Notes under the pieces: model-generated | What the model was told of the DNA's origin: nothing | Seen by the model: the letters and a program-made list of their open reading frames with translations, nothing else | Database searches by the model: none | Position numbers and translations under genes: made by a program | From: an uncultured SAR86 cluster bacterium | Lineage (GTDB): Bacteria > Pseudomonadota > Gammaproteobacteria > Magnimaribacterales > D2472 | Assembly (NCBI GenBank): GCA_943788515.1 | Contig: CALSQM010000011.1 | Coordinates: 23,005-87,004, forward strand | Reading direction: 5' to 3' | Length of the DNA: 64,000 bases | In this document: positions 3,811 to 6,909 of the stretch, piece by piece | Position numbering within the stretch: the first letter of the stretch is position 1 | Layout of the letters: each line of letters starts with the position of its first letter

Positions 3811-3888
<78 letters not shown>

Positions 3889-4436: not shown

Positions 4437-4529
4437 ATGGCTAAAGGTTTAGACAAGCAAAAGAACAACAAGAAGAAAGGTAAAACTCTTAAAGAAAAAA
4501 GAGCAGCAAAAAAAGAAAAAAAGAAATAG
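4437..4529 (+). CDS. Very small Lys-rich basic protein (30 residues), below ORF-track size
   Basis: A 30-codon ORF (MAKGLDKQKNNKKKGKTLKE...) starts six bases after an exact AAGGAG ribosome binding site, which is among the best Shine-Dalgarno sequences in this AT-rich window. About half of the residues are lysine and there are no hydrophobic segments, so the product should be cytosolic and may bind nucleic acid or ribosomes. Short proteins beginning MAKG and ending in Lys-rich tails occur in other gammaproteobacteria, from memory, without known function. It stands alone between the tRNA fragment and the convergent metal operon. Confidence 0.6.
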   Translation: MAKGLDKQKNNKKKGKTLKEKRAAKKEKKK

Positions 4530-4547: not shown

Positions 4548-5225
4548 CTATCTAGTCGACCTAGAGACGTCTTTGAAATCTATTTTAAAGAACAACATTA
4601 TTCCGGTCACCGAACTCACTAAAGCTAATATAGAAAATATTTTTAAAAGAAGGTTGTCGATATTATCTCTTTCTTTCCAATCCATAATATGAAACCCCCA
4701 CATAAGATCCCATATCTTCCATTTATTAGATCTAATGGCCAAAATTTCTCCTGAATAAACATTGATGTAAACGTTCACTTCAGCACTTTTACTATTTTTA
4801 CTTTTTACTTTATAAATTGGAAGTGATCTTCCTCTGTATTCAGATCCTGATTTTTTATTTGTCACTTCTTCAGCAGCAAATGGCAAAAGGGTTGTTTGGC
4901 TTGAAACAGAATCCATCGCATCTTTTGTAGAGATTTTTGTTACAGGCTCTCCAAGCATATCCAGATACCTTGTCGTACCCTTTGTTTTAATGATAACGAT
5001 CTCTTGACCTAGTCTTTTTTTGAATTCAACCTCTTCGGCCTTTTCTATTTCAAAACCTAACTTACTTAAATCAAAAGATGTTTCTTTGAGGTTGAGGTAT
5101 TGTTCGCCTCTTACAAGTTCAATCTTATTAAAAGCAAAATATATGCCTGAGATAGTCCATAGTAATAATTGAAGAGAAATAAAAAAGCTAAGATACTTAT
5201 GTATTTTTCTAACTAAAAAGTTCAT
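4548..5225 (-). CDS. PepSY-domain membrane protein, last gene of metal operon
   Basis: The 225-residue protein has an N-terminal transmembrane helix (YLSFFISLQLLLWTISGIYFAF), a periplasmic middle region with PepSY-like strands (EVNVYINVYSGEILAIRSNKWKIWD), and a C-terminal helix (LLLKIFSILALVSSVTGIMLFF). This is the arrangement of PepSY-associated TM proteins, some of which act in iron or copper handling and reductase chemistry. Its start overlaps the CsoR-family stop (ATGA), so it is translationally coupled to that operon. I infer a membrane partner role in metal handling; no catalytic motif is visible. Confidence 0.7.
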   Translation of the reverse strand: MNFLVRKIHKYLSFFISLQLLLWTISGIYFAFNKIELVRGEQYLNLKETSFDLSKLGFEIEKAEEVEFKKRLGQEIVIIKTKGTTRYLDMLGEPVTKISTKDAMDSVSSQTTLLPFAAEEVTNKKSGSEYRGRSLPIYKVKSKNSKSAEVNVYINVYSGEILAIRSNKWKIWDLMWGFHIMDWKERDNIDNLLLKIFSILALVSSVTGIMLFFKIDFKDVSRSTR

Positions 5226-5482
5226 CTTTTCATAATCTTCATTATTTCATCAATTTTGATATCAAACTCATCATCACCTTTAAGAGATTCTTTAATGCAT
5301 TCCCGTAAATGTGTTTTAAGAATCTTTCCTTCAACAGTAATAATTGAATTCTTTAATGCTTTTATTTGATTGAGAATATCAACGCAATACTTGCCTTCCT
5401 CAATCATTCCTTGAACGCCTCTTACCTGGCCCTCTATTCTTTTTAAGCTTGTTAATTGTTCTTTATGACATGGATGTTTCAT
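5222..5482 (-). CDS. CsoR/RcnR-family metal-sensing repressor
   Basis: This is an 86-residue all-alpha protein of the DUF156 (CsoR/RcnR/FrmR) family, at normal length, with the SLKRIEGQVRGVQGMIEEGKYC signature. The ligand pattern Cys33, His58 and Cys62 matches the C-H-C set of Cu(I) sensors; an N-terminal His3/Cys5 may add a ligand, as in Ni or aldehyde sensors. Such proteins bind GC-rich pseudo-palindromes and release DNA on metal binding. A matching operator lies at the head of this operon, so autoregulation is likely. Copper is the best guess but the metal is not proven. Confidence 0.9.
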   Translation of the reverse strand: MKHPCHKEQLTSLKRIEGQVRGVQGMIEEGKYCVDILNQIKALKNSIITVEGKILKTHLRECIKESLKGDDEFDIKIDEIMKIMKR

Positions 5483-5484
5483 TT

Positions 5485-5850
5485 TTATAAAAACCTCGGA
5501 ACTATATATGTAAAGATTGTAGCGAATAAAAAAATTGATACAGATGCATAGTACAGATACCTAGATTTTTTTCTAGTCTCAGAACATACTCTGCCTAGCT
5601 CAGGATCTGCAGGACAAGGCATATGATAAGTTTTATAGTTAACATAGCCTGCAATGACTATCATCACCAAAGCAAATAGAGTTATATAAAATTTATATTG
5701 AGATAGAGTAATTAAAAATGGAAATACAGTTACCAGGCTTGCAAAACTTGCTCCTGCGCCAAGCGCAACAAAAATTGCTGGCAAAGCACAGCATATTAAC
5801 GTAGACGAAGATGCAAACAATGAAAAGAAATTTGATGACTTGTCATTCAT
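5485..5850 (-). CDS. MerT-like metal transport membrane protein
   Basis: I place the start at the ATG of MNDKSSNFF (121 residues); the tracked TTG three codons earlier is possible and would couple to the upstream stop. There are three hydrophobic segments. The first carries a vicinal Cys pair (TLICCALPAIFVALGAG), and a loop has a second Cys pair (MPCPADPELGRVC), the hallmark arrangement of mercuric transporter MerT and relatives. In mer systems MerT carries Hg(II) inward from periplasmic MerP. Here there is no merA, and the regulator is CsoR-like, so the substrate may be copper or another soft metal. Confidence 0.78.
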   Translation of the reverse strand: MNDKSSNFFSLFASSSTLICCALPAIFVALGAGASFASLVTVFPFLITLSQYKFYITLFALVMIVIAGYVNYKTYHMPCPADPELGRVCSETRKKSRYLYYASVSIFLFATIFTYIVPRFL

Positions 5851-5855
5851 AGTTA

Positions 5856-6263
5856 TCAAATTTCTAGGATTTGAAGATCAGACATATTTTGACCATTAGA
5901 AAGAATTTTCTTTTCAATTTCAGAATAAGTAATCTCTTTTGATTTAGAAAAGGCAATTACGACCTTACCATTATCAAGGTCGACATCTATTTTTTTAACA
6001 TTTTTATCTTTCAAAAAAGTTTTTGAAATACCCCTTGCACAGAAATCACAAACCATTCCCTTTACACTTACTATTGCTATATTTACATTTGATAATTCTT
6101 TAACAAACATATCAAATCTTTCAGGGTTAACATCAAGACCTTTCCCATCAACCATAGTTTCATGTAAATGCCCTTCATGAGAGTGCCCATGCATTCCACT
6201 ATGATCATTCTCAGCAGCGATGAGGCTACTTGAAAATAAAGTAATTAATAATAATTTTTTCAT
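5856..6263 (-). CDS. Periplasmic His-rich heavy-metal-associated (HMA) domain protein
   Basis: This encodes 135 residues: a Sec signal (MKKLLLITLFSSSLIAA), a His-rich segment (DHSGMHGHSHEGHLHE), then a MerP/CopZ-like HMA domain with metal-binding GMVCDFCARG and a beta-alpha-beta pattern to the C terminus. The CxxC binds soft metals such as Cu(I) or Hg(II); the His cluster may buffer or capture metal. It is the natural periplasmic partner of the MerT-like protein encoded next. A good GGGAG ribosome binding site precedes the ATG. The fusion of a His-rich leader to a periplasmic HMA domain is unusual. Confidence 0.82.
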   Translation of the reverse strand: MKKLLLITLFSSSLIAAENDHSGMHGHSHEGHLHETMVDGKGLDVNPERFDMFVKELSNVNIAIVSVKGMVCDFCARGISKTFLKDKNVKKIDVDLDNGKVVIAFSKSKEITYSEIEKKILSNGQNMSDLQILEI

Positions 6264-6275
6264 ATTTTTCTCCCT

Positions 6276-6881
6276 TTAAAATCTGTACATAAAATGTAAA
6301 TCCCAGTCAGTGACAGCACTATAGCCAAACTCAACAAGGGTATTACCATAAAAAAATTTCAATTCTGGATATGTGGATGATTTATTCGTTACAGTATTTT
6401 TTTTAGTTTTAACCATAATCCATGTATGTAAATTATTGTAATCAGCAACGTAAGGAGCGAAACCTAGTTGTATATATTCTTCCTTATAGTCTTTGCTAAA
6501 TTTATTGTTAATATCCTTTAACCCAAAACCCGCATACCACTTACGAGTTTCCCAGTCACCATGTATGCCATAAAAATTATTTTCAACACCTCCAGGCACA
6601 ACTCCTGATTGAAAATATAAATTTCTTTGGGATTTAAAAGTATTTTTTCTATTCACTAAATAAGTAAAACGAAAATAGTTTTCTGTATTTTTATAAAATT
6701 TATTTTTAGCCCTTTCTAGACCTATGGAATATTTATAGGTTGGTGAATAGTGGAGGTAAACAGAATCATTAAAGGTATCTGATTTATACATTATGGTTGT
6801 TCCACCAGAATAGGATATTGGTCTTGCATCAGCATTAAGGACTGTTAAAAAGACTAGAATAATTATTTTATATATACCCAT
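6276..6881 (-). CDS. Probable outer-membrane beta-barrel protein, first gene of metal operon
   Basis: The 201-residue product has a signal peptide (KIIILVFLTVLNADA), then many alternating aromatic strands, and ends in HFMYRF, the C-terminal aromatic signature read by the Bam complex. It looks like an 8- to 10-strand barrel. I do not recognise the family. As first gene of the CsoR-type operon it may pass, bind or sense a metal at the outer membrane. The start codon lies inside the operator, and no alternative start codon preserves the signal peptide, so the mRNA is probably leaderless or nearly so. Confidence 0.65.
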   Translation of the reverse strand: MGIYKIIILVFLTVLNADARPISYSGGTTIMYKSDTFNDSVYLHYSPTYKYSIGLERAKNKFYKNTENYFRFTYLVNRKNTFKSQRNLYFQSGVVPGGVENNFYGIHGDWETRKWYAGFGLKDINNKFSKDYKEEYIQLGFAPYVADYNNLHTWIMVKTKKNTVTNKSSTYPELKFFYGNTLVEFGYSAVTDWDLHFMYRF

Positions 6882-6891
6882 AGGGGGTATA
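6873..6891 (-). promoter_or_regulatory. CsoR-type operator at head of metal operon
   Basis: On the plus strand TATACCC-ATAGG-GGGTATA is a perfect 7-bp inverted repeat with a G-tract core. It is very like published CsoR sites of the form ATACCC...GGGGGTAT. It covers the ATG of the first operon gene and follows a TATGAT -10-like hexamer on the minus strand, so a bound repressor would block both transcription and the start region. The operon encodes its own CsoR-family protein. Confidence 0.85.
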
Positions 6892-6909
6892 CTATCATAA
6901 AATAGTAAA

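Follow-up and report, generated by a model that had tools for sequence, protein, structure and literature searches.

Most cells remove copper with P-type pumps (CopA and relatives), and in csoR-copZA operons such an ATPase is encoded with an HMA metal carrier under a Cu(I)-type CsoR and a type-2 operator at the promoter. The locus described here lies in a 64,000-nucleotide stretch of DNA from an uncultured SAR86 cluster bacterium (the window); it shares this type of regulator, operator and carrier, but it has no CopA ATPase, its HMA protein is a secreted one, and MerT-like and outer-membrane-type proteins are present instead. It also recalls merTP, which encodes MerT, a protein known as an importer, in having a three-helix MerT-like protein with four Cys residues and a secreted MerP-like HMA partner; in this cassette, however, the MerT-like protein falls below the Pfam cut-off, CsoR replaces MerR, MerA is absent, and a barrel protein and a His-rich HMA protein are added. 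Vibrio plasmids carry sets of MerR, GDCCVxC, MerT-like and HMA genes (L133:5221-7356 and L134:4222-6092) that resemble ours in the MerT-like protein, the secreted HMA protein and an adjoining secreted, possibly barrel-type protein, but they differ in the MerR regulator, the gene order and the GDCCVxC protein, and the third protein may be unrelated in sequence. Beside the L134 set lie genes for CopB, a multicopper oxidase and a P-type ATPase; this copper context of a similar set favours a copper role for the cassette, and the Vibrio arrangement is possibly convergent. Finally, CruR-CrtA-CrpH of Bordetella pertussis similarly places a PepSY_TM protein in a copper operon, but that operon includes a TonB-dependent receptor and is induced by copper starvation; moreover, CrpH-type proteins have four or more TM helices along with four heme His (PMC13038864), whereas the SAR86 PepSY protein is shorter, with two TM helices and two invariant His. 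Literature searches returned no description of the barrel-HMA-MerT-CsoR gene set and no metal system that matches it under other names.

The locus consists of five ORFs arranged head to tail on the minus strand from 6881 to 4548, overlapping or separated by at most 12 bp, as the initial annotation had placed them. That annotation proposed a five-gene unit, and five genes are indeed present here, but the conserved unit is of four: barrel-HMA-MerT-CsoR is the gene order in every complete copy among the family's genomes, and the recurrence of this synteny in every complete SAR86 copy examined argues against a chance adjacency. The PepSY gene is optional, lying downstream in 17 SAR86 copies, divergently upstream in 6 and unlinked in 9 (in 7 of these 9, it is found elsewhere in the genome). 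PepSY homologues were found in 34 of the 38 SAR86 genomes tested, including most cassette-free ones, so we regard this protein as a partner that joined the cassette rather than as a core part, and this breadth together with the variable placement rules it out as a fixed member. Because the four neighbours are conserved together in relatives and no described system has this gene set, the initial annotation escapes both the objection that the genes are scattered elsewhere and the objection that they belong to a known system, and its proposal of a minimal envelope metal route stands as the best reading.

Of 107 family genomes, 32 gave a barrel gene; a MerT gene was found in these 32 and in two more whose contigs are cut. 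The closest named contigs sharing the gene order belong to SAR86 cluster records, in line with a SAR86 host. Relatives of the barrel protein were found in 45/151 genomes of the order and, outside the order, in 8 genomes of a class sample (369 genomes); a phylum sample gave one distant match besides this genome, and a search of plasmids and viral contigs gave none. In the copies outside the order, barrel, HMA and MerT are kept together where the contig allows; a CsoR was recognised in L108, L110, L111 and L115, and the four-gene synteny extends to L108, L110 and L111. We thus reject confinement of the cassette to one genus, as it is shared by SAR86 genomes of three families and several other gammaproteobacteria.

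The first gene (6276..6881, minus strand) encodes a secreted protein of 201 residues, which the initial annotation called an unrecognised barrel protein. It is unrecognised in that it has no Pfam, NCBIfam or PDB relative, a PDB profile search giving a chance match alone (E 0.25); the traits behind its barrel label, all read from the sequence, are a signal peptide, strands of amphipathic character and an aromatic beta-signal (YRF) at the C-terminus, the AlphaFold model (from four input sequences) being unusable at a pLDDT of 35. These traits would place it in the outer membrane with a barrel fold, as a new barrel-like family, and two of its residues, H44 and H152, are invariant across 52 copies. 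The second gene (5856..6263, minus strand) encodes a secreted HMA-domain protein (PF00403, 35.6 bits against a cut-off of 24.8) with a His-rich N-terminus and a CxxC metal site (CDFC) kept in 52/52 copies; it scores below the NCBIfam curated cut-offs for both CopZ (37.3 of 91) and MerP (17.7 of 92.55). The MerT-like gene (5485..5859, minus strand) most likely starts, as in relatives, at the ATG at 5850, giving 121 residues. Its product scores below the curated cut-off of Pfam PF02411 (20.9 versus 32.9) and has the MerT architecture of three TM helices with one Cys pair in TM1 and another in a loop; the four Cys are kept in 52–53 of 53 copies and align with both pairs of real MerT. The last gene (4548..5225, minus strand) encodes a short PepSY_TM protein (31.9 bits against a cut-off of 28.8) in which H9 and H179 are the invariant His. 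A near-identical copy of this PepSY (98%), with one of the end of the window's MerT-like gene, is found in genome G012 (L137, contig C126 near 71552-72620); G012 also carries its own diverged cassette, and the contig is possibly mis-binned.

The regulator (5222..5482, minus strand) belongs to the CsoR family (PF02583, 88.6 bits against a cut-off of 22.8), and its closest PDB chain, 4adz, is a CsoR. Y32, C33, H58, C62 and E79 are invariant in 49–50 copies, as is H6 near the N-terminus, and the Cys-His-Cys, Tyr and Glu correspond to the residues that bind Cu(I) and form the second shell in Mycobacterium tuberculosis CsoR. At the promoter lies a 21-nt pseudopalindrome, ATATACCCCCTATGGGTATAT (6872..6892, minus strand), which encloses the ATG of the barrel gene and has a TAC-N9-GTA core (6875-6889) with G tracts, the form described for type-2 CsoR operators, whose Streptomyces consensus is ATATACCCCTNAGGGGTATAT (PMC3902906). 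In 48 of 52 copies an exact TACCC-N5-GGGTA, with poorly conserved flanks, stands at the start of the barrel gene; this genome has no other exact match. The operator of L078 has a 1-bp deletion; L112–L114 do not have the operator form and no CsoR was recognised in their cassettes, L112 and L114 having a Shine-Dalgarno-like stretch in its place. A −10 hexamer, TAGTAT (6889..6894, minus strand), ends 7 nt before the A of the ATG, and the four fixed positions of its T-A-x-x-A-T pattern are kept in 47–48 of 48 copies. Given this spacing, the start codon is probably also the transcription start, which would give a leaderless mRNA and an operator built around the start codon of a leaderless gene. The initial annotation had listed Cu, Hg, Ni and Zn without choosing between them; CsoR, with its full Cu(I) fingerprint, and the type-2 operator point to Cu(I), and would bring a MerT-like protein under copper control.

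The absence of a P-type ATPase, at first noted for the operon, extends to the whole genome: with copper genes searched family by family, this genome (79% complete) and 32 other SAR86 genomes yielded no P-type ATPase of any kind (0/33; 19 of the 33 are 90% complete or more), while each of the 14 control genomes gave matches. Among the eight other gammaproteobacteria with the cassette, three of which have genomes of 2.4–3.2 Mb, one had a match, and that was weak and partial. P-type ATPases occur in 313/369 genomes of the class sample, and their frequencies in cassette-positive and cassette-negative genomes were 1/11 and 312/358 (p = 3e-8, uncorrected for relatedness), or 1/8 and 312/357 with SAR86 removed (p = 6e-6, likewise uncorrected). 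The cassette occurs almost only in bacteria without P-type copper pumps. Lineage and genome streamlining could partly account for the missing ATPases, and because the 17 cassette-free SAR86 genomes tested lack them too, a cell without these ATPases can do without the cassette as well. No HME-type (CusA-type) RND pump scored above the curated cut-off in 26 SAR86 genomes; one did in 1/8 of the other cassette-bearing gammaproteobacteria. SAR86 is among the most abundant groups of the surface ocean, and we found no study of its copper biology in the literature; since all SAR86 genomes tested are without P-type ATPases, the cassette would offer a concrete and testable account of how its carriers survive copper. 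The initial annotation had not mentioned the start-codon operator, the promoter of a probably leaderless mRNA, the genome-wide lack of P-type ATPases or the likely transfer of the cassette among SAR86 lineages.

We consider it moderately probable that these genes form a Cu(I)-inducible, P-type-ATPase-free cassette for handling copper in the envelope. One could envision apo-CsoR sitting on the operator over the start point and the start codon of the first gene and so blocking transcription; a rise in cytosolic Cu(I) would lead CsoR to bind Cu(I) and let go, yielding a leaderless mRNA for all genes. The MerT-like protein would then relay Cu(I) across the inner membrane between the Cys pairs of its loop and of TM1, the CxxC of the secreted HMA protein would take up or hand over Cu(I) while its His-rich tail buffered it, the barrel-like protein would give copper passage at the outer membrane, and the PepSY protein, when linked, may keep periplasmic copper reduced. 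Metal binding, the outer-membrane location of the barrel-like protein, the flow of copper and a net purpose of detoxification are what we infer here, and the same is true of any decision between export, sequestration and supply: CsoR control favours a response to excess copper, and MerT homology favours import. Against detoxification stand the known role of MerT proteins as importers and the lack of an evident energy source for export. An outward route replacing CopA, in which the MerT-like protein moves copper from cytosol to periplasm without ATP and the HMA and barrel-like proteins carry it out, is a tentative possibility. If true, streamlined marine bacteria would possess a novel way of exporting copper without an ATPase.

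Alternatively, like the CrtA/CrpH operon of Bordetella, the cassette might bring scarce copper inward to the periplasm and the oxidases; the PepSY protein, possibly a Cu(II) reductase, would then act as the reductase. Import is what MerT and MerP-type proteins do, ZnuD-like receptors adjoin some copies, the PepSY protein is widespread in SAR86 as described above, and CrpH has been proposed to reduce copper in the periplasm in support of heme-copper oxidases (PMC13038864); yet a CsoR-type repressor lets go when copper is in excess, the opposite of what acquisition would call for, and PepSY is not a fixed member, leaving this a doubtful explanation. Envelope copper handling under CsoR could also amount to sequestration, the HMA protein and its His-rich tail acting as a periplasmic copper sponge with the MerT-like and barrel proteins as minor partners and no net transport. 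The conserved His-rich N-terminus (H29, H32 and H34 in 45–48 of about 48 copies) would suit such a sponge, but the Cys quartet of the MerT-like protein equals the HMA CxxC in conservation, and every copy has the barrel gene in first position, so we judge sequestration alone to be unlikely. We also think it unlikely that a CsoR-family sensor here responds to another metal (Ni, Zn or Hg): the Ni sensor InrS has the same C-H-C ligands (Foster et al., PMC4235346), and the invariant H6, the MerT resemblance and the zinc genes adjoining L114 would fit, but InrS lacks the second-shell Tyr that is invariant in the cassette CsoR and that appears predictive of Cu(I) selectivity in the family, the complete Tyr-Glu pair occurring in no known Ni sensor (Foster et al., PMC4235346), and the cassette has neither MerA nor MerR. 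Mercury resistance as such is rejected, the latter two being absent from the cassette; the absence of merA had been remarked on from the outset.

The genes flanking the cassette differ widely between copies, and a phylogeny built from barrel, HMA and MerT splits the copies from the window's own genus (p-AU 0.0047 for a single group); a grouping of the SAR86 copies apart from the f48 copy (L108) had a p-AU of 0.81. A dozen SAR86 copies have a tRNA-Phe gene next to the cassette or close by, and it is the sole tRNA found in the vicinity of the SAR86 copies fetched from other genomes; in the window there is a tRNA-Ile at 3811-3888. From the differing flanks, the split genus and the nearby tRNA-Phe, we infer that the cassette has been exchanged among SAR86 lineages, often at a site linked to tRNA-Phe, and this suggests tRNA-Phe(GAA) as an island insertion site.

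The tRNA-Phe(GAA) gene may be on either side of the cassette, within about 100 bp in L074, L077, L078, L085, L086, L116 and L127 and further off in L081, L082, L089, L091 and L120. A MerC-domain protein is encoded near the cassette, often just upstream, in L079, L080, L083, L087, L088 and L093 (PF03203 was tested for the L093 copy). Three copies outside SAR86 (L109, L110 and L114) have ZnuD-like TonB receptors or Zur/Znu genes as neighbours, a hint, counter to the copper reading, that zinc may be involved in these lineages. In the window, the operon is followed on the opposite strand by a Lys-rich ORF of 30 residues, MAKGLDKQKNNKKKGKTLKEKRAAKKEKKK (4437-4529, plus strand), that is kept in the closest relatives.
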